Below, piece after piece: positions 12,169 to 45,041 of a DNA stretch of 64,000 nt (within the stretch, counting starts at the first letter, position 1; the number at the start of each line of letters is the position of its first letter). The notes below the pieces were generated by a model. That model was given only the letters and a program-made list of their open reading frames with translations. It made no database searches and was not told the DNA's origin. The position numbers and the translations under genes were made by a program. This DNA is from Haladaptatus paucihalophilus DX253 (GTDB lineage: Archaea; Halobacteriota; Halobacteria; Halobacteriales; Haladaptataceae), in contig NZ_AQXI01000001.1 in the NCBI RefSeq assembly GCF_000376445.1, forward strand, positions 466,962 to 530,961. Reading direction: 5' to 3'.

Positions 12169-12276
12169 ATGAAGCGATGCCGCTCTCTCCTCGCCATCCT
12201 GCTCGCAATCGTGACCGTCGCGCTCGCGCTCCGCCGACGAAAGCGGTCGCGTACCCAACTCGAACCGCCGTTCTAA
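12169..12276 (+). CDS. Putative 35-residue single-pass membrane microprotein
   Basis: A short frame starting four bases after the thioesterase stop. It encodes MKRCRSLLAILLAIVTVALA, then a strongly basic stretch (LRRRKRSRTQ) and a stop. A basic end, one hydrophobic helix of about 14 residues and a second basic end make a plausible microprotein or signal-anchor peptide. No family can be named. A chance frame is possible because the region is GC-rich; the close coupling to the upstream gene is the main support. Confidence 0.38.
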   Translation: MKRCRSLLAILLAIVTVALALRRRKRSRTQLEPPF

Positions 12277-12359
12277 CGCGGTCGTCGCGGTCGTTTTTAT
12301 CGTCGTGTCGGCCTGCCGGTCATAATCTTTTATCGGCTGGCTGTAATAGTACATCGGGA

Positions 12360-13913
12360 ATGGGAACTTCTGATTCGCCCGCACTCGATGCACCGATTCT
12401 TCGCGTTTCGGCTGGGGCGGGGCGCGAGGACGCGGAAGCGGTGCTCGACAGTGCACGTGACGCGGCGGAAACGGTGGCGGTTGCGAACGTCGGCCCGGTC
12501 GGAATCGAGGAGTTGACGCCGCTCGTGGCGACCACGGCCGACGGAACCACCGCGTTTCACGCGAACTGCACCCCCCAGCGTGCCCGAACCCTCGTCGAAT
12601 CGCTGGAGGACGGCACCGTCGTCGAGGAGGGCGCACACGCGGTCGTGAGCCACGGCGAGGAGCAGGCGACCTTCCCGGTGCCGGACGACGGGCCGCTGTC
12701 GGTCGGTCGCCGGGACGTCCTCGAACGGTGCGGCTGGGTGGACCCGACGACCGCGGAGGGCTACGAGGAGTTCGTCGCGGCGGAGGCCGGTGCGGCCCCG
12801 GAGACGGTCATCTCGCGGGTCGAAACCGTCGGCTTGCTCGGCCGCGGACGGGGCGATGCGCGGATGGACGAACCGGTCGCCGAGGAGTGGCGGACGGCCC
12901 GCGAAACCGACGGCGACCCGGTCGTCGTCGTGAACGCCGGGGAAACCGACGATAGGAATGCCACCGACCGGACGCTGTTGGAGGCCGACCCCGTAGCGGT
13001 GCTCGACGGCGCGACGGCGGTCGCCTCGGCCATCGGTGCGGAGGATATCGTCGTCTACTGCCCGGAATCCGCCCTCGGAACCCGTGAACGGGTTCGGAAG
13101 GCGATGACCGCGTTTAACGACACCGACGCCGCCGAGGGCGTGACGATTCGCACCTTCGCCGCCCCGGACATGTACATCGCGGCGGAGCCGACGATGGCCC
13201 TCGAAGCACTGGAGGGTAACGACCGGTTGGAGGCCCGCCTCCGCCCGCCGTCCCCCGGCGAGCACGGGTTGTACGGTCGGCCGACAATCGTCCACACGCC
13301 GCGCACGTTCGCACAGGTTCGACGAATCCTGCGCGACCCGGACGCGTTCGACCCGGACGACGCCGACCCCGGCACGCGACTCCTGACCGTGACGGGCGAC
13401 GTGACCGCCCCCGCGACCCTCGAACTGCCGACCGGCGGCAGTCTCGAAACGGTGCTGGAGGCGGTCTCGGTCGATAGCGAGTTCAAGATGGCGTGCGTCG
13501 GCGGGCAGTTCGGCGGCGTCACGCGCTCGCTCGACCACACGCCGAGCGCCCCGGCGCTGACCGGCGCACGCCTCGGAACCGACGGCGTGGTCGAACTCTT
13601 CGACCAGTCGCGGTGCGCCGTGGTGACCGCCGGAACGCGGGCGCGGTTCGCCGAGGAGGAAAACTGCGGGCGCTGCGTTCCCTGCCGCGAAGGCTCGAAG
13701 CAGTTGACGAACCTGCTTCGAGATATCTACTCCGGCGAGTTCAAGGACGACATGCTCCGCGAACTCGCCCGGACGATGCGCGAGACGAGCATCTGCTATT
13801 TCGGACGGTCGGCGTCGCGGCCCGTAACGACCGCGATGGACGAATTCGAACCGGAGTTTCACGCACACGCCGAGGGCCGTTGTCCGAGCGGCGCGTGCGA
13901 GGAAGTACAGTAA
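12360..13913 (+). CDS. NuoF-like subunit of formate dehydrogenase (FdsB type)
   Basis: A 517-residue iron-sulfur protein resembling the NADH-binding subunit of NAD-dependent formate dehydrogenase or complex I. Residues 1-100 look like the thioredoxin-like N-terminal extension without its cluster cysteines. The middle resembles the FMN/NADH domain, but the Gly-rich loop reads GLLGRGRGDARM instead of the usual RGRGGAGFPTG, and the acidic loop reads NAGETDDRNATDR. The SLBB-like segment and the C-terminal [4Fe-4S] site are intact: ENCGRCVPCREG plus Cys in TSICYFG. ATG 12360 begins the conserved protein. It lies 81 bases upstream of the fused catalytic subunit, so the two form an operon. Confidence 0.8.
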   Translation: MGTSDSPALDAPILRVSAGAGREDAEAVLDSARDAAETVAVANVGPVGIEELTPLVATTADGTTAFHANCTPQRARTLVESLEDGTVVEEGAHAVVSHGEEQATFPVPDDGPLSVGRRDVLERCGWVDPTTAEGYEEFVAAEAGAAPETVISRVETVGLLGRGRGDARMDEPVAEEWRTARETDGDPVVVVNAGETDDRNATDRTLLEADPVAVLDGATAVASAIGAEDIVVYCPESALGTRERVRKAMTAFNDTDAAEGVTIRTFAAPDMYIAAEPTMALEALEGNDRLEARLRPPSPGEHGLYGRPTIVHTPRTFAQVRRILRDPDAFDPDDADPGTRLLTVTGDVTAPATLELPTGGSLETVLEAVSVDSEFKMACVGGQFGGVTRSLDHTPSAPALTGARLGTDGVVELFDQSRCAVVTAGTRARFAEEENCGRCVPCREGSKQLTNLLRDIYSGEFKDDMLRELARTMRETSICYFGRSASRPVTTAMDEFEPEFHAHAEGRCPSGACEEVQ

Positions 13914-13953
13914 CCGTGAGAGCAACACGTGCAACCGTGAGAGCGACACGTGC
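13912..13953. repeat. Two tandem 21-base repeats in the formate dehydrogenase operon spacer
   Basis: Positions 13912-13932 and 13933-13953 are identical except one A/G change. Each unit contains ACCGTGAGAGC followed by the palindrome CACGTG (13926-13931 and 13947-13952). The first unit begins within the stop codon of the NuoF-like gene. The repeat lies in the 81-base spacer ahead of the catalytic-subunit gene. Confidence 0.8.
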
Positions 13954-13994
13954 GTTACAAACGCAGCGCGGATGACGAGAGGCGACATCACAAA

Positions 13995-16900
13995 ATGAGT
14001 TCAGACGAGCAATCAGGAATCGAAGACACCGCTCCGGCCGCACCCAAACCCGGTGTGCCGGACATCGAAGACCCGCGACCGAGCACGCCGCTGACCGAGG
14101 ATTTCGTCACGGGGACGGCGAACGACCCCGACTTCGGTGCGGACGGCGATGGAATGAATCACGTGACGGTGGACGGCCACCCGATAGCCGTGCCGCCGGG
14201 TTCGACGCTCATCGACGCCATCGACGCGGTGGAGACGGACGGACACGTCCCGGCGCTCTGTTACTACGACCGGGACACCGATCAGGGCGACAACATCGGA
14301 CCGCGTTCGGAATGCCGGACGTGCATGGTGGAGACGGACGAACATGGCTTAGTTCCGTCCTGCAGTTTCCCCGCGGAGGACGGCCTGACGGTGCGGACCG
14401 ACGCCGAGGACGCGGCGAACGCCCGCGACGTCAACCTCGATTTGGTGCTCTCGAATCACAACCTCAGGTGCACCACGTGCGGGCAGAACGGCCGCTGTGA
14501 GCTACAGGACACCTCCATCGAGAACGGCGTCGAGGAGCCCCGCTACGGCGTGTTCGAGGACCGCGACGAGTACGAACCCATCGACGACACGTCGGCCGCC
14601 ATCCAGATAGACCGGAACAAGTGCATCCTCTGTAATCGCTGTGTCGAGGCCTGCAACGACGTGCAGGTCGAAGGCGTCCTCCGAATCGAGGGCCAAGGAC
14701 AGGACACCCGAATCGGCTTCCAGAGCGACGCCGAGACGATGAGCGATTCGACGTGCGTCTCCTGTGGCCACTGTGCGACCGTCTGCCCGACGGGTTCGCT
14801 GGTCGAACAGGGCCTGACCGACTCGGCGACCATCCCGCTCCCCGGATTCAACCAGAAGAACTCCATCGGGAAGACCATCGAAGTGGACCACGCCGAAACG
14901 TCCGATACGTCCACCGCGCCGAACCGGAACGTACCCGGCGAACGCGACGAGGAAGAACTCTCCGGCGTCGCGCGGTTCATGGCGAAGGCGAAGGGGAAAG
15001 CGCGGGAAACCGGCGAGCGCGTGAAGGACGAATTGCTCGAAGAGACCGAACACGTCGCCGAGAAATCCGCCTCCGAGACGCTGAACATCGGGCATATGTT
15101 CGACGTCGCCGAACTCGTCAGCGGCCCGCGCCTCTCCGGCGTGACGAAAGCCGAAACGACCTGTAACTACTGCGCCGTCGGCTGTCGGTTCGACCTGTAC
15201 GGCAAGGACGGCGAAGTGCTCGGCGTCCGACCGGCGGACGAGGACGCGACGCCCGCGAACGACTTCTCGACCTGCGTGAAGGGCAAGTTCGGTTACGACT
15301 TCGTGAACAGCCCGAACCGCCTGACCACGCCGCTCATCCGCGAAGGCGACGAGTTCCGCGAGGCGACGTGGGAGGAAGCCCTCGACAAGGTGTACGAAGG
15401 GTTGTCGAAGATACGCGAGGAGACCGGCGACGACGCCATCGCCGTCACCTCCTCCTCGAAGTGTACGAACGAGGAGAACTTCCTCGCCCAGAAGTTCGCC
15501 CGCCAGGTGTTGCACACGAAGCACGTGGACAACTGCGCCCGGCTCTGTCACTCATCGACCGTGGCCGGACTCCAGCAGACGCTCGGCTACGGCGCGATGT
15601 CGAACCGCATCAACGAGGACATCGGGAAGACCGATTGCTATCTCATCACCGGGTCGAACACCACGGGAAGCCATCCCGTGCTGGCGACGCGAATCAAGCA
15701 GAACGTCGATGACGGCGCGGACCTGTTCGTTTTCGACCCCCGCAAAATCGGTCTGGCCGAGCACGCGACCCAGTACACGCAGACCAAACCCGGCGAGGAC
15801 ATCGCGTGGATAAACGGCATGGTGCGATACATTATCGAGAACGACCTCCACGACGAGGCGTTCATCGAGGAGCGCACCAAGCACTTCGACGAATTGAAGG
15901 AGAAGGTCCAGCCGTTCACGCCCGAGAAGGTCGAAGAACTCGCGGGCGTTCCCCCGGAGGAACTCACGAACGCGGCCGAAACCATCGCCGAGGCCGACAC
16001 CTGCATCTTCGGCTGGGCGATGGGGATGACCCAGCACGCACACGGAACGCGGAACGTCATCGCGTTGACGAACCTCGCGCTGGTGACGGGCAACCTCGGG
16101 AAACCGCGCGCCGGTGTGTCTCCGTTCCGCGGGCAGAACAACGTGCAGGGCGGCGGCGGCGACATGGGTCCGGCACCACACACCCTGCCGGGCTATCAGG
16201 ACCTCTCGGACGACGACGTGCTCGACAAGTTCGAGGACGCGTGGGGCGTCAGACCGCCGGACGAAATCGGTCTCCGATTGCCCGAACAGTACGAGGCCAT
16301 CACGGAAGGCCACATCAAGGGCATGTTCATCATGGGCGAGAACCCCGTGCTCTCGGAACCCGACATCCGCGAGGCCGAGAACGCAATCGAGGAACTCGAC
16401 TTCCTCGTCGTACAGGACATCTTCCTCACCGAGACGGCCGAGTTTGCCGACGTGGTGCTCCCCGCGGCGTCGAACGCCGAGAAGTCCGGCACGTTCACGA
16501 ACACGGAACGGCGCGTCCAGCGCGTCCGCCCCGCCGTCGAACCGCCGGGAGAAGCGCGAACCGATTCGGACATTCTCGCGGACCTCGCCGGTCGGTTCGG
16601 CTTCGACTGGGACTACGACGGCCCGGTGGACGTGATGGACGAAATCAACGACCTCGTGCCGATTTACGGCGGCGTCACTTACGACCGTCTCGAATCCACG
16701 CCGGAAGGACTTCAGTGGCCCTGTGAGGACGAGGACGACCCCGGAACGCCGTTCCTGTACGAGGACGAGTTCAACTTCGACGACGGCAAGGCCCGGTTCG
16801 TCCCGGCGGACTACGGCGGCCCGGTCGAACTCCCGGACGAGGAGTATCCGTTGATGCTCACGTCCGGCCGGGTGCTCTACCACTGGCACACCGGCACCAT

Positions 16901-17282
16901 GACCCGCCGCGTCGAGGTGCTGATGGACCACGTGCCCGAGAGTTTCGTCACCATCCATCCGGAGATGGCCGACCGACTCGGCGTGAAGGACGGCGAGTAC
17001 GTCCGCGTCACGTCCCGACGCGGGGACATCGTGACGAAGGCCAACGTGGAGGAAACCTCGGACCCCGGCGTCGTCTTCATCCCGATGCACTTCGCGCACG
17101 GGGCCATCAACGAACTCACCCAACACGCGCTCGACCCGACGTCCTACATCCCCGAGTACAAGGTGACGAGCGTTCGAATCGAACCGCTCGGCCCGGACAC
17201 CGACGAGGACCCCCTCCCCGTCGAACCGCCGACGGGAACGCTCGAAGGAAGGCCCGGAGAGCAGACGACGGGCGACGACTGA
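13995..17282 (+). CDS. fdhA: Formate dehydrogenase catalytic subunit, NuoG-like ferredoxin domain fused to molybdopterin domain
   Basis: A 1,095-residue Mo/W-bis-pterin enzyme predicted to oxidise formate to CO2. The N-terminal part (about 1-290) is NuoG-like: a [2Fe-2S] site (Cys89, 107, 110, 123), a His-Cys3 [4Fe-4S] site (His155, Cys159, 162, 168) and two ferredoxin clusters (Cys210-220 and 254-264). A linker with a KAKGKARETGERVKDELLEE helix leads to the MopB domain: [4Fe-4S] Cys390, 393, 397, 427, and metal ligand Cys518 in NCARLCHSS, where selenocysteine or cysteine occurs in formate dehydrogenases. The C-terminal dinucleotide-binding domain is complete. ATG 13995 follows the tandem repeats. 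A second, split version lies at 45.4-48.7 kb. Confidence 0.9.
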   Translation: MSSDEQSGIEDTAPAAPKPGVPDIEDPRPSTPLTEDFVTGTANDPDFGADGDGMNHVTVDGHPIAVPPGSTLIDAIDAVETDGHVPALCYYDRDTDQGDNIGPRSECRTCMVETDEHGLVPSCSFPAEDGLTVRTDAEDAANARDVNLDLVLSNHNLRCTTCGQNGRCELQDTSIENGVEEPRYGVFEDRDEYEPIDDTSAAIQIDRNKCILCNRCVEACNDVQVEGVLRIEGQGQDTRIGFQSDAETMSDSTCVSCGHCATVCPTGSLVEQGLTDSATIPLPGFNQKNSIGKTIEVDHAETSDTSTAPNRNVPGERDEEELSGVARFMAKAKGKARETGERVKDELLEETEHVAEKSASETLNIGHMFDVAELVSGPRLSGVTKAETTCNYCAVGCRFDLYGKDGEVLGVRPADEDATPANDFSTCVKGKFGYDFVNSPNRLTTPLIREGDEFREATWEEALDKVYEGLSKIREETGDDAIAVTSSSKCTNEENFLAQKFARQVLHTKHVDNCARLCHSSTVAGLQQTLGYGAMSNRINEDIGKTDCYLITGSNTTGSHPVLATRIKQNVDDGADLFVFDPRKIGLAEHATQYTQTKPGEDIAWINGMVRYIIENDLHDEAFIEERTKHFDELKEKVQPFTPEKVEELAGVPPEELTNAAETIAEADTCIFGWAMGMTQHAHGTRNVIALTNLALVTGNLGKPRAGVSPFRGQNNVQGGGGDMGPAPHTLPGYQDLSDDDVLDKFEDAWGVRPPDEIGLRLPEQYEAITEGHIKGMFIMGENPVLSEPDIREAENAIEELDFLVVQDIFLTETAEFADVVLPAASNAEKSGTFTNTERRVQRVRPAVEPPGEARTDSDILADLAGRFGFDWDYDGPVDVMDEINDLVPIYGGVTYDRLESTPEGLQWPCEDEDDPGTPFLYEDEFNFDDGKARFVPADYGGPVELPDEEYPLMLTSGRVLYHWHTGTMTRRVEVLMDHVPESFVTIHPEMADRLGVKDGEYVRVTSRRGDIVTKANVEETSDPGVVFIPMHFAHGAINELTQHALDPTSYIPEYKVTSVRIEPLGPDTDEDPLPVEPPTGTLEGRPGEQTTGDD

Positions 17283-17329: not shown

Positions 17330-19078
17330 CTACTCCTTCCCGACGGGGGTTTCGTCGTCCACGACCGAATCGAGTCCCAACCGGGAGAGTAGCGAGCGGG
17401 TGGGCCGCCCCGTTTCGTCCCAGCCGCGTTTTTCGTAGTAGACCGACAGCAACCGCTCGAACTCCTCGGGGTCGAGTTGCGCCCCGTCGTTCGGGCCGCC
17501 TCGCAACGGTTCTGCGAGCATCGCCGGGAGCGCGTCGTCCTCCCGGTCGAACCCTTCGCGGACGTTGAACAGTCGAGTCAGCGTCCAGACCCGCTCGCCG
17601 ACCCGCCGAAGTTCGTCCGCCGACAGACCGATTCCCGACTCGTGCAACCACTCGGCCCCAGCCTCGTTCCACAGCGCTTCGCCAGCGAAATCGTCCACGA
17701 CGAGGCTCCAGAGGAGCGACCGCAAGTCCTGCTCCTCGATGACCGCTTCCGCGCGGCGCTCGTCGGTCCACGACCCGGCCGCGAACACCTCTTCGAGGAC
17801 GGGACGCGCCCGGCGGTGGCAGGCTCCGCGGTCGCTGGTGGCGTACGCGAGCGCCATCGCGGGAGCGCCGCGGGGGTCGTAGGTCGGCAAATCCATCGCC
17901 TTCACCGTCGGAACGAGTGTTTCACCGCCGTACCGCGCCGCCGCCGCGTCTACTCCATCCGCGAGCACGTCGCCGAGTTCGGACGAGCGATACGCGACTT
18001 CCTCCAAGAGGTCGCGCGCCGCCTCGTCGTCGCCGAACTCGATGTCGCGCGAAAGGACGCCCTCCGTCGCCGCGCGAATTGTCCACGCGACGGCGTTGCC
18101 CGCGCTGATGAGGTCGAGACCGAGGTCGTCGCACGCCGCGCCGAGTACCGCTACCGCGTCGAAATCGTCGATGCCCAACCCGGACCCGAGCGAGATGGCG
18201 GTTGCGCCACGCGGCACCGTTTCGCCCTCGCTACTCTCGACGCGAAACCCACCGGCCACCTCGTCGTCCGGGTTCTCCCGCGCGACGGCCCGTTCGCGCG
18301 CGCTCTCGATGCCGATGTCGTCCGCGCCCTCGAAGGACCCTTCCTGCCACCCTCTCGTCGGGAGGACGCCGACCTCGTTGGCGAAATCGACCGTTTCGAG
18401 CGTTTCGCTCGACGTCTGCCACCGGCCGATGTCGGTGCTCCCGTAGTTCGACTCCGCCTCGCCACGCCCCGGTTCGCCGACCGCGACGACGGCTTTCATA
18501 CCCTTCGACCCCATGACGGCACCGGCACCGCCGCGACCCGCGTGGTGGTCCCCGCCGTCGGACGCGACGGTCGCGTATCGAACCTCCCTTTCCCCCGCGG
18601 GACCGATGCAGGCCGTCGGTCGCTCGAACGCGTCACACGTTTCCTCGACCGTCGAACCCCACAGCTCGTCGGTCGGTTCGACCGTCGCGTCCCCGTCCTC
18701 GATTCGCACGGAAACGGGGTCGGCGGACGCGCCCGTGAACAGCACGCCGACGTGGTTTCCCAGCGCGGCGGCGAGGTGGTCGGGAAACGACCCGCCGGAG
18801 TACGAATCCAGAAACGTTCCGGTGAGCGGCGATTTCGTAACCACCGCGTAGCGCGACTCGCCGGGGACGGTGCCCGTCAACGGTCCGGGCATGAACAGCA
18901 GGGCGTTCTCGGGTCCGAGCGGGTCGATACCCGCATCCAATTCGTCGTAGAGATATCGCGCCGCAAGTCCCTTTCCGCCGACGAACCGCCGTGACCACGA
19001 CGCGGGGACCGGTTCGCTTTCGGCTCTGCGAGACGAGAGGTCGATTCGAAGAAGCCGAGCGGTCGATGGAGACGCCAT
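17330..19078 (-). CDS. Aldehyde:ferredoxin oxidoreductase homologue lacking iron-sulfur ligands
   Basis: A 582-residue member of the tungsten-pterin AOR family, which oxidises aldehydes to carboxylates with ferredoxin. Pterin-binding features are kept: an N-terminal beta domain (FVGGKGLAARYLYDEL), RGGAGAVMGSKGMKA, DPRGAPAMALAYATS and DRGACHRRA. The cubane ligands are missing: the CxxCxxxC site reads AxxNPxxE (residues 266-273), and the fourth Cys is Asp462 in SLVVDDF. The protein has only Cys148, 157, 316 and 420. Electrons therefore cannot leave through the usual cluster. GTG 19123 and ATG 19102 are other in-frame starts; 19078 best fits family N-termini. Divergent from mobA, convergent with fdhA. 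Confidence 0.82.
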   Translation of the reverse strand: MASPSTARLLRIDLSSRRAESEPVPASWSRRFVGGKGLAARYLYDELDAGIDPLGPENALLFMPGPLTGTVPGESRYAVVTKSPLTGTFLDSYSGGSFPDHLAAALGNHVGVLFTGASADPVSVRIEDGDATVEPTDELWGSTVEETCDAFERPTACIGPAGEREVRYATVASDGGDHHAGRGGAGAVMGSKGMKAVVAVGEPGRGEAESNYGSTDIGRWQTSSETLETVDFANEVGVLPTRGWQEGSFEGADDIGIESARERAVARENPDDEVAGGFRVESSEGETVPRGATAISLGSGLGIDDFDAVAVLGAACDDLGLDLISAGNAVAWTIRAATEGVLSRDIEFGDDEAARDLLEEVAYRSSELGDVLADGVDAAAARYGGETLVPTVKAMDLPTYDPRGAPAMALAYATSDRGACHRRARPVLEEVFAAGSWTDERRAEAVIEEQDLRSLLWSLVVDDFAGEALWNEAGAEWLHESGIGLSADELRRVGERVWTLTRLFNVREGFDREDDALPAMLAEPLRGGPNDGAQLDPEEFERLLSVYYEKRGWDETGRPTRSLLSRLGLDSVVDDETPVGKE

Positions 19079-19115: not shown

Positions 19116-19156
19116 TCGGCCACAGAAACTTACTCACCCGCCACGTACGAAAAACC

Positions 19157-19774
19157 ATGCCCGCAGGTGTCGTCATCGCCGGAGGTCGCTCGACTCGATT
19201 CGGGAAATCGGACAAAGCGGTCGCTCCGCTCGCGGGAGTGCCGATGATTCGCCGCGTCGCCGACCAACTCGTCGATGTCGTCGACGAACTCGTCGTCAAC
19301 TGTCGGGAAGACCAACGCGCGACGATCGACGACGCCATGAGCGACTATCCGCTCCCCGTTCGCTTTGCCATCGACACCGACCCCGACACCGGACCGATGG
19401 CCGGAATCCGTACCGGACTCGCGGCGTGCGACCACCACTACGCCGTCGTCGTCGCCTGTGACATGCCCTTCGTGGACCCGGCAATCGTCTCGTTCCTGTT
19501 GAATCGAGTGGACGGCTACGACGCCGCCGTCCCTCGACTCGGCGACGGATGGTTCCAACCCACGCACGCCGTGTACCGACCGGAACCCATGGTCGAGGCG
19601 TGCGCCGCCGCCCTCGCCCGCGGCGAGCGACGAATCGTCGAACCGCTGTTCGACCTCGAATACGTCGTGGTCGAGGAGGACGAACTCCGGGAACACGGCT
19701 CGCTCGACTCCTTCGAGAACGTCAACACGCGCGAGGAGTTCGAACGCGCCGAAACCCAACTCGAAGGAACCTGA
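19157..19774 (+). CDS. mobA: Molybdenum cofactor guanylyltransferase
   Basis: A 205-residue nucleotidyltransferase that joins GTP-derived GMP to Mo/W-molybdopterin to form the guanine-dinucleotide cofactor used by formate dehydrogenases and relatives. The family motifs are present: VVIAGGRSTRFGKSDKA at the N-terminus (GTP binding), TDPDTGPMAGIRTGL, and the metal-binding stretch VACDMPFVDP. The start at 19157 opens the conserved motif directly. Its position beside two tungsten/molybdenum enzyme genes fits its role in their maturation. The 78-base spacer to the divergent AOR gene contains a GGGGA-AAA-TCCCC inverted repeat. Confidence 0.9.
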   Translation: MPAGVVIAGGRSTRFGKSDKAVAPLAGVPMIRRVADQLVDVVDELVVNCREDQRATIDDAMSDYPLPVRFAIDTDPDTGPMAGIRTGLAACDHHYAVVVACDMPFVDPAIVSFLLNRVDGYDAAVPRLGDGWFQPTHAVYRPEPMVEACAAALARGERRIVEPLFDLEYVVVEEDELREHGSLDSFENVNTREEFERAETQLEGT

Positions 19775-19919: not shown

Positions 19920-20645
19920 TCATTCGACGACCGCAACCACGGGTTCGTCCGCCATCATCCTCGTGAGGACGACGCGGGAAACGTTCGCACTCGCCAGCAC
20001 TCGCTCCGCGATGTCCCGTCCCACGGCTTCCAACTCCCCGTCGTCGACCATGTTCACGACCGGAACGACCGTCGCCTCCTCGGGAACGTCCTTCATCCCG
20101 CCGCGCGCGCTCGCCAGCACGGTAGCCACGTCTGACGCACGGAGTTCTTCGCCCGCTTCGCGCCCCGTGAGCGACGCCACTCGCTCCGGTCGATGGACGA
20201 ACTCCTCGGTCAGCGGCTTGCCGACGACGCGAGCGCTCGCAATCGGAACGACGACGTCGGCGTTCGACGGGAGTTGTGGCTCGCGGTCGTTCGGTGCCTT
20301 CAGAAGCCGCGTCCGCGCGCCGTCCGCCTTCACGAGAACCGGCGCGTCGGTCCGGTCCCGAAGCGACGCCACCGTCTCGGTGTCGTATCCTCGATAGCGA
20401 TCGGGTCGCTCCTGTTCCGGTACGACCCCAACGGGCCATTCCTCGACCCTGTGGAGTGTTTCCCCCGGTGAATCAGTGACGACGACTTCCCGAACGTGGT
20501 CATCGAAAATCGGGATTCGGACCGTCGCCGTGACGACGGCCCTGTCGAGATGGGACGCCAGCGTGTACAGCGTCGATTTTTTCCCACCCGCTCCGACGAC
20601 ACAGAGGAGCCCGGAATCCGCCGAGAGTGCCGTAACGAGGTCCAT
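19920..20645 (-). CDS. yqeC: YqeC-like molybdenum hydroxylase accessory protein (P-loop)
   Basis: A 241-residue P-loop protein of the YqeC family, thought to assist maturation of selenium- or molybdenum-dependent enzymes. The Walker A loop is VVGAGGKKST near residue 17. Further family traits are VLVKADGARTRLLKAPND and ADVVVPIASARVVGKPL. In bacteria the gene usually travels with molybdenum hydroxylases and cofactor genes; here it lies in the same island as MobA and two Mo/W enzymes, which supports the call. The biochemical activity of the family is not firmly established. Confidence 0.75.
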   Translation of the reverse strand: MDLVTALSADSGLLCVVGAGGKKSTLYTLASHLDRAVVTATVRIPIFDDHVREVVVTDSPGETLHRVEEWPVGVVPEQERPDRYRGYDTETVASLRDRTDAPVLVKADGARTRLLKAPNDREPQLPSNADVVVPIASARVVGKPLTEEFVHRPERVASLTGREAGEELRASDVATVLASARGGMKDVPEEATVVPVVNMVDDGELEAVGRDIAERVLASANVSRVVLTRMMADEPVVAVVE

Positions 20646-43337: not shown

Positions 43338-45041
43338 TCAGTCGTGGTGCGCGGAGACGCGAGTCGGGACGTCTTCGACCGGCTCGAACGCCGTTCGCCG
43401 CTCGCCCGTTCGAAACCGCTCCTCGTGCAGAATCCCGGTCCCCTCCTCCGCATCGTCCGGTAACGGCCAGCGCTGACTTCCGTGACCGATTCCGTCGTAC
43501 GACATCCCCGCGTACAGCGGATTGACGCGCGTGAGTTCGTCGAACACTTCTTCTCTGTCGTCGTACTCGAACCGAGCGTCGGTCAGTCGTCTCCCGATTT
43601 CGAGGAGGATGTCGAGGTCGCGTCGAACGCCATCCGGCGGCGGGGTCATCGGGCGCATCCGCTGTACCTGCCGGTCGAGGTTCGTCACCGTTCCGCCCTT
43701 CTCGGCCCAGAGGCTCGCCGGAAGCACCACGTCCGCGTGTTCGACCGTCTCGGTCGGGAACGCCTCCTGCACGAGCAGGAAGTCGAGCGATTCGAGCGAC
43801 CGGGCGACCGACTGCGTGGCCCGTTTGCTCACGGCGGGGTTCTCGCCGACGACGTACGCGCCGCGAATCGCGTCGCCGAACGCGCGAACCGCGTCGAGTT
43901 CCGAGCGGCCGGGACGCGAGGGTGGGGCCGCGCCCCACTCCTCGGCCACCGCCGACCGCGCGTCGGCGTCGGCCACGGGACGAAAGCCCGGAAGCGTCGA
44001 GGGACGACAGCCGACGTCGTTCGCCCCCTGTTCGTTGGTGAGACCGCGCAGGAGGTTCATCCCCGTCCCGCGCCTGCCGATGTTACCCGTCACGAGGAGG
44101 AGGTCGATGAGCGCATCCGCCGTCGCGGTTCCCTCGTGGTCGTCTTCCTCCGCTCCCGTTCCGACGATGACGGCGGCGCGGTCGGCGCGGCCGAACCGCT
44201 CTGCGATGTGGCGAATCCGCTCTGCATCGACGCCGGTTCGCTCGGCGCACTCGTCGAGGGAGAGGGACGCCAGCGATTCGGCGAACGACTCGAAGTTCGT
44301 CGTCCGCTCGGCGATGAACGCCTCGTCTTGCAATTCCCGGTCGAGGAGTTCGGCGGTGACGGCGTTCACGAACAGCGCGTCGGTGCCGGGGGTCGGCGCG
44401 ACGTGCGCGTCGGCGAGTCGCGTCGTCTCGTTGGCGTCCGGTTCGACGTGAATCAACGTCGCGCCGTCGTTGATTGCCGGGCGAAGATACGAGTTGAAGG
44501 CGATGGGTTGCTGGGCGGCCGGGTTCGCGCCGACGACGAGGAACAGGTCCGCCTCGGTCAAATCCGAGAGCGTGTTGGTCATGCCCGGCGACCCCAACCG
44601 CTCGACCATCGCCGCGACCACCGACCCGTGGCAGATTCGCGCCCTGTTATCGACGTTGTTCGTCCCGAGGACGCGAGCGAGTTTCTGGAGGAGGTAGTTC
44701 TCCTCGTTGGTACAGCGCGGCGCGCCGAAGAACGCGAGCGCGTCCGGTCCGCGGTCGTCGAGAACGGTTTCGAACTCGGCTTCGATTCGGTCGAACGCCT
44801 TCTCCCACGTCACGGATACGAGGTTCCCTTCCTCTCGAATCAGCGGGTCGGTGAGTCGGTCGGCGGCGTTCAGTCCGTCGAAGGCGTCGATTCCGTTTCG
44901 ACAGAGCCGCCCCTCCTCGTTGACGGGTGCGCCGTCACACCCCACAGCACCGTCCCGCCGGTCGCTGTATCGGACGCGACAGCCGACCGAACAGCACGGG
45001 CAGACGCTTTCGACCGTCTCGTCGGGGTCCGTTCCGTTCAT
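43338..45041 (-). CDS. MopB-family molybdopterin oxidoreductase lacking the C-terminal dinucleotide domain
   Basis: A 567-residue protein of the formate dehydrogenase/nitrate reductase family. The [4Fe-4S] site is SVCPCCSVGCRVRY (Cys14, 17, 21) with Cys47, and the metal ligand position is Cys137 in NRARICHG, so the start of the catalytic core is intact. It ends at FEPVEDV, exactly where the paralogue at 45.4 kb enters its C-terminal molybdopterin-dinucleotide-binding domain of about 140 residues. That whole domain is absent and does not continue in another frame. ATG 45041 overlaps the stop of the zinc-ribbon gene. Activity, if any, would be unusual. Confidence 0.78.
   Translation of the reverse strand: MNGTDPDETVESVCPCCSVGCRVRYSDRRDGAVGCDGAPVNEEGRLCRNGIDAFDGLNAADRLTDPLIREEGNLVSVTWEKAFDRIEAEFETVLDDRGPDALAFFGAPRCTNEENYLLQKLARVLGTNNVDNRARICHGSVVAAMVERLGSPGMTNTLSDLTEADLFLVVGANPAAQQPIAFNSYLRPAINDGATLIHVEPDANETTRLADAHVAPTPGTDALFVNAVTAELLDRELQDEAFIAERTTNFESFAESLASLSLDECAERTGVDAERIRHIAERFGRADRAAVIVGTGAEEDDHEGTATADALIDLLLVTGNIGRRGTGMNLLRGLTNEQGANDVGCRPSTLPGFRPVADADARSAVAEEWGAAPPSRPGRSELDAVRAFGDAIRGAYVVGENPAVSKRATQSVARSLESLDFLLVQEAFPTETVEHADVVLPASLWAEKGGTVTNLDRQVQRMRPMTPPPDGVRRDLDILLEIGRRLTDARFEYDDREEVFDELTRVNPLYAGMSYDGIGHGSQRWPLPDDAEEGTGILHEERFRTGERRTAFEPVEDVPTRVSAHHD

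Follow-up and report, generated by a model that had tools for sequence, protein, structure and literature searches.

Introduction

The cysteine motif of the aldehyde:ferredoxin oxidoreductase (AOR) family is present in 99% of its members (PMC10413684), and the Class I WORs are defined by having the [4Fe-4S] cluster (PMC13328260). The 99% figure means that exceptions have been counted; in the openly accessible main texts searched, they were not described, and neither was any haloarchaeal AOR lacking the cluster. The residues that touch the pterins have been reported for the AOR of A. aromaticum (PMC10413684), and Glu313 is the proposed proton acceptor (PMC12096430). Formate dehydrogenases are frequent in halobacteria although fdhD is lacking there, and a 2023 review described the insertion and sulfuration of the Mo/W cofactor, and the proteins that carry them out, as an open question (PMC10609526). 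Selenium-independent roles have already been suspected for YqeC (PMC5029168). Here we describe AORx, a conserved haloarchaeal protein descended from tungsten aldehyde oxidases, whose gene lies among those of a formate dehydrogenase, a MobA-type protein and YqeC.

AORx keeps the AOR fold and lacks all cluster ligands

The gene and its altered sites are located as follows in the window, that is, the whole stretch of 64,000 nucleotides that was analysed:

17330..19078, minus strand: AORx, AOR-fold protein of 582 aa, without Fe-S ligand cysteines and without Glu313
18248..18283, minus strand: loop in place of the CxxCxxxC motif, residues 266-277 (ARENPDDEVAGG), from the alignment and predicted secondary structure
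18203..18211, minus strand: RGA, residues 290-292, aligned with Glu311-Tyr312-Glu313 of P. furiosus AOR, so that the catalytic carboxylate is missing
17708..17710, minus strand: Trp457 at the position of the pterin-binding Asp489, from the alignment
17693..17695, minus strand: Asp462 at the position of the cluster-ligand Cys494, from the alignment

The 582 aa are counted from an ATG, and an alternative in-frame GTG start is possible at 19123. Two Pfam domains, AFOR_N (1.9e-63) and AFOR_C (4.3e-94), together cover the whole length, no other Pfam domains were matched, and the closest PDB entries are AOR/FOR enzymes. The AlphaFold model (pLDDT 92.7, pTM 0.94) shows the complete three-domain AOR fold, with VIA Z values of 50.1 to 1b25 and 48.7 to 1aor and an rmsd of 2.1 over 563-573 residues in these superpositions. 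A sequence-only reading had proposed that this AOR homologue carries no ligand cysteine, and the alignment bears this out: its four cysteines (148, 157, 316 and 420) all lie off the ligand columns. The replaced sites that it had pointed out were also found, RENPDDEVAGG standing at CxxCxxxC and SLVVDDF at Cys494 (SLVVCKF in other AORs). The loop at residues 266-277 is two residues shorter and is predicted to lie inside a short beta-hairpin.

The same reading held that the pterin-binding motifs are kept. The motifs that it quoted are present in the AORx sequence, and the Asp343 motif is indeed retained; the second one (Asp489...Cys494) now reads W...D, leaving AORx with one of the two DxxGL(D/C) pterin motifs (Trp489 and Asp494 in the replaced one). 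When the A. aromaticum pterin contacts were mapped on AORx, Arg76, Gly95 and Asp343 were kept, whereas Arg182 was changed to His, Asp489 to Trp and Cys494 to Asp. Judged from these residues, the pterin site looks half intact and half altered, and the three substitutions around the second motif could mean that no bis-pterin is bound. The class-defining second-shell set Thr243/Glu313/Tyr427/His448 is incomplete, Glu313 being the missing member. The earlier reading had overlooked the loss of Glu311-Tyr312-Glu313 and that of Asp489 in the second pterin motif, and had not seen that an entire clade is defined by the trait.

The losses define a haloarchaeal clade under purifying selection

A genome scan combined with searches of relatives yielded about 70 homologues with roughly 51-73% identity, all of them haloarchaeal, from genera that include Haladaptatus, Halorussus, Haloferax, Haloarcula, Halobacterium and Halovenus. 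We named this clade AORx and aligned 73 members against 71 outside comparators and five sister-clade proteins. All four cluster ligands are missing in 73/73 AORx proteins, while each of the 71 comparators and of the five sister proteins has the full set. Position 494 is Asp in every AORx member and Cys in all comparators (71/71) and sister proteins (5/5). At Glu311-Tyr312-Glu313, AORx has Arg and Gly (73/73) followed by Ala, Ser or Gly (73/73), so that Glu313 occurs in 0/73 members versus 71/71 comparators, and the sister clade keeps it. Position 489 is Trp in 73/73. An aromatic residue (Tyr/Phe) already stands there in the Fe-S-bearing sister clade, which also has the Arg182 to His change in common with AORx. 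Other residues near the metal are retained, namely Thr243 (73/73), Tyr427 (72/73) and His448 (73/73), as is Asp343 of the first pterin motif (73/73). In the tree, AORx forms one clade (SH-aLRT 100) and the sister proteins form another (99), the two being joined with a support of 100; on the simplest reading, cluster and catalytic acid were lost once, by an ancestor still equipped with both.

Two trivial explanations could be dismissed. A cysteine at a shifted position does not account for the pattern, since the first ligand segment is free of cysteine in 73/73 homologues; the second segment has one in 21/73, never at the ligand column. A base-calling error is ruled out by the absence of all four ligands from 73/73 haloarchaeal homologues. 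A few genomes do have split or frameshifted copies (the gene is split in G026 and has one internal TGA in G023), as would suit a pseudogene in decay or an artefact of sequencing; against this stand frames intact in most of the 102 genomes that carry AORx, clade-specific invariant residues and a dN/dS of 0.09-0.23. Such values reflect purifying selection and mean that the protein is maintained, and we regard the pseudogene explanation as refuted, with a negligible chance of being right. As a separate observation, the ex-cluster loop of the AORx at L152:4245-6239 is itself the site of a long insertion of low complexity (DGDRGETADGDAGETADGD), which suggests that this loop is free of cluster constraint.

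AORx lies with MobA and YqeC in three types of operon

The neighbours of AORx in the window are:

12177..13913, plus strand: FdhB, NuoF-like diaphorase subunit, start uncertain (PF10589, PF01512; TIGR01959 151 bits, below cut-off)
13950..17282, plus strand: FdhA, formate dehydrogenase alpha with a NuoG-like N-terminal part (TIGR01591 839 bits, cut-off 666)
19157..19774, plus strand: MobA-type molybdopterin guanylyltransferase, ORF from 19097 (PF12804 8.7e-39; MobA models below curated cut-off)
19920..20645, minus strand: YqeC (TIGR03172), 241 aa, motif GAGGKKST (170 bits, cut-off 73)

FdhB and FdhA are thus convergent with AORx, MobA is divergent from it and YqeC follows. The active site of FdhA is of the Cys type (NCARLCHSS, Cys-His). 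Elsewhere in the window, a second FdhA-like alpha subunit (P0002; 45486-47789, minus strand) is 57% identical to FdhA and also of the Cys type (NCNRLCHSP), and a nearby ORF (43338-45041, minus strand) has NRARICHGSVVAAM, a motif typical of molybdopterin oxidoreductases.

The AORx/YqeC/MobA trio recurs in three formate-dehydrogenase-type layouts, and AORx lies at most 15 kb from YqeC in 70 of 102 genomes. The first layout has the NuoG-fused FdhAB pair. The second has a shorter FdhA (about 710 aa; 761 bits, above cut-off), accompanied at several loci by an ADH that resembles formaldehyde dehydrogenase and by a GTPase of the CobW/ZigA kind. In the third, from Haloarcula and relatives, the enzyme is FdhA-like, and its companions are an HdrA-like FeS/FlpD protein and a chaperone resembling NarJ. 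None of this applies to the five sister-clade genes, which have no MobA, YqeC or formate dehydrogenase beside them and whose neighbours are unrelated. Other conserved genes were seen in these operons. A protein of about 190 aa without clear family (L146:5439-5996 and homologues, 10 loci) occurs near the second type of FdhA and MobA/YqeC, and is a candidate for another maturation gene. The Haloarcula-type layout has a DUF7124 protein and two small unknown proteins after AORx (L144:5020-5709, L144:4244-4585 and the Haloarcula loci), and the Haloarcula loci alone also have a Dyp-peroxidase-like DUF7405 protein there.

This setting bears on what AORx may do. It could still be an active Mo/W-pterin oxidoreductase of formaldehyde or formate metabolism whose electrons go straight to a partner (a flavin, a quinone or the formate dehydrogenase complex) and not by way of a cluster of its own. 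His448, Tyr427 and Thr243 near the metal are kept, and the formaldehyde-dehydrogenase-like ADH of several AORx operons (TIGR02819 339 bits, below cut-off) makes C1 oxidation a shared theme. On the other hand, the Glu313 of all 71 comparators has become Ala, Ser or Gly, Glu311 and Tyr312 are lost with it and, besides formate dehydrogenase, no partner redox gene is common to the three layouts, so we consider an active oxidoreductase unlikely. A non-catalytic structural or regulatory subunit that binds formate dehydrogenase itself, and not the cofactor, would agree with the clade-wide loss of catalytic residues and with the position of AORx beside FdhA in several layouts. It is decidedly unlikely in our judgement, as the steadiest partner of AORx is YqeC, not one FdhA type, the operons are of three types, and a subunit would have no need to retain Asp343, His448 and the pterin cleft. 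Finally, AORx could be an enzyme that uses a metallopterin for hydration or isomerisation, non-redox reactions for which no electron relay is needed; acetylene hydratase provides a precedent of W-pterin with net non-redox chemistry (PMC12096430). Acetylene hydratase, however, retains both a catalytic Asp and its Fe-S cluster, AORx has neither the ligands nor the Glu, and its genomic surroundings speak for cofactor assembly, which leaves this explanation a slim chance.

AORx and YqeC co-occur with formate dehydrogenase

We surveyed 194 haloarchaeal genomes, each at least 90% complete. AORx was found in 102 and YqeC in 126 (124 above cut-off); YqeC was present in 102/102 AORx genomes versus 24/92 of the others, an association spanning 38 genera, in which the co-occurrence profiles follow descent and the Fisher p values take no account of shared ancestry. 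A contrast within the 12 genera in which some members have AORx and others lack it showed that in nine of them at least half of the AORx-negative genomes also lack YqeC, whereas in g8, g20 and g21 most or all of them retain it. Formate dehydrogenase types 1/2, separated from type 3 by hand according to the identities and coverages in the hit table, occurred in 114 genomes; all 114 had YqeC and 95 had AORx. In seven of the AORx genomes, FdhA gave no match at 1e-150. The profile of MobA is uninformative because 169 of the 194 genomes have a match at 1e-20. Altogether, YqeC fits better than AORx as a constant maturation candidate.

As a control for tungsten use we took WOR83, a cluster-bearing paralogue and tungsten-enzyme homologue, which was found in 113/114 genomes with types 1/2 and also in 29/80 without such an enzyme. 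Among the WOR83-positive genomes, YqeC was present in 113/113 with types 1/2 versus 10/29 without them, and AORx in 94/113 versus 7/29. The association persists in this set, and the idea that it is a mere side effect of tungsten use was rejected. A related possibility is that AORx helps to choose or insert tungsten instead of delivering a finished cofactor: WOR83 accompanies AORx in 101/102 genomes as opposed to 1/22 genomes with FdhA type 3 only, and one bacterial formate dehydrogenase is known to have a maturation module specific for W (PMC13197769). Against it, WOR83 occurs in 41 genomes without AORx, where its cofactor must be made without AORx; we find a tungsten-selecting role improbable.

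Type 3, to which P0002 belongs, is the only FdhA of 22 genomes; these lack AORx and FdhD and mostly lack YqeC, so that another maturation route must exist. The P0002-type enzyme seems to mature by such a separate route, given that its genomes have no AORx and mostly neither YqeC nor WOR83.

FdhD is absent and YqeC mostly occurs without SelD

FdhD/NarQ (PF02634) was found in 0/194 haloarchaeal genomes, while the same search was positive in 8/14 controls that included other archaea. This absence supports the statement on halobacteria in the 2023 review. SelD scored above cut-off in 17/194 genomes overall and in 15/102 AORx genomes, and genome G000 had no SelD above cut-off. Since SelD is so scarce, YqeC is here not mainly a selenium gene and mostly works without selenium; a selenium role for the locus through YqeC is accordingly not favoured. 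The YqeC model (pLDDT 96) has a P-loop SIMIBI-like NTPase fold, its likeness reaching Z 13 with SRP GTPases and Z 10 with MeaB. The SIMIBI class includes cofactor-loading GTPases. In the SelD genomes (e.g. G038, G048 and G173), YqeC lies beside SelD in reading frames often of about 328 aa, which is the known selenium-hydroxylase trait, and most of these genomes also carry a second YqeC linked to AORx.

A possible role in cofactor handling

The sequence-only reading had left three options for AORx (another electron route, a non-redox job or an inactive regulator) and had singled out a cofactor-related role as worth testing. Among these, a cofactor-related non-redox job is favoured, because Glu313 was lost along with the cluster and because AORx is linked to, or co-occurs with, MobA, YqeC and formate dehydrogenase across 38 genera; another electron route has no positive evidence. 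The best explanation in our assessment, at about even odds, is that AORx, a former tungstopterin aldehyde oxidoreductase, has given up redox chemistry and acts with MobA and YqeC on formate dehydrogenase, as a carrier of Mo/W-pterin or as a maturation factor. The more specific proposal, a maturation of formate dehydrogenase by YqeC, MobA and AORx independent of FdhD, with a disarmed tungsten enzyme as the metallopterin carrier or insertase, is tentative and falls somewhat short of that.

Under this proposal, AORx would still bind Mo- or W-pterin, perhaps through one half-site, and would do so without turnover; lacking the cluster and Glu313, the bound cofactor would neither turn over aldehydes nor leak electrons. 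MobA would supply or finish the guanine dinucleotide, and YqeC, modelled as a SIMIBI-type NTPase, could drive loading or release. AORx may thereby carry, protect or prepare the cofactor for formate dehydrogenase, and the YqeC/MobA/AORx set would deliver and possibly sulfurate the cofactor of FdhA, which is part of the job that FdhD does elsewhere. The invariant Cys420, beside the equivalent of His448, is a candidate sulfur relay, a speculative one because P. furiosus AOR likewise has Cys there. AORx as a full replacement of FdhD was rejected in its simple form: 19 of the 114 genomes with types 1/2 do without AORx, so it cannot be a universal substitute nor essential to every such enzyme.

In the absence of FdhD, the candidates that track formate dehydrogenase are therefore YqeC (114/114) and AORx (95/114), MobA lying beside them. 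If the proposal is true, a metallopterin redox enzyme has been repurposed as a cofactor-handling protein and YqeC has a selenium-independent job. In any case, labelling every gene with an AFOR domain as aldehyde ferredoxin oxidoreductase misleads in the AORx clade.

Comparison with known systems

The YqeC of the window belongs to the same family (TIGR03172) as that of the selenium-dependent molybdenum hydroxylase trait, but in the haloarchaea it accompanies formate dehydrogenase and AORx, and SelD is mostly missing. The job proposed for AORx would be analogous to that of the FdhD/XdhC sulfurtransferase chaperones, in that a Mo/W-pterin is held and then handed to one enzyme class. Nevertheless, no homology between these chaperones and AORx was detected (the FdhD-NarQ domain PF02634 gave no match in AORx, which has AFOR domains only), FdhD is not in these genomes and sulfur transfer by AORx is hypothetical.

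Closer by descent is WOR4 of P. furiosus, likewise related to AOR, whose cluster site is damaged and for which aldehyde activity was not detected (PMC12096430). WOR4 loses one Cys, which gives a 3Fe cluster, and still holds W, whereas AORx loses all four together with Glu313. The Fe-S-bearing haloarchaeal sister clade (L135-L139) is 43-44% identical to AORx and shares Tyr93, His178-His179 and the aromatic residue 489, but it keeps all four Cys and Glu313 and is not found beside MobA, YqeC or formate dehydrogenase. Finally, the AOR/WOR enzymes (P. furiosus AOR 1aor and FOR 1b25) are homologous to AORx over the whole length, with the same fold and the Arg76, Gly95, Asp343, Thr243, Tyr427 and His448 positions in common; they differ from AORx, which has 0/4 [4Fe-4S] ligands, no Glu311/Tyr312/Glu313 and a changed second pterin motif. 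AORx is hence an AOR/WOR homologue by sequence and fold, yet falls outside the definition of a Class I WOR or aldehyde:ferredoxin oxidoreductase.
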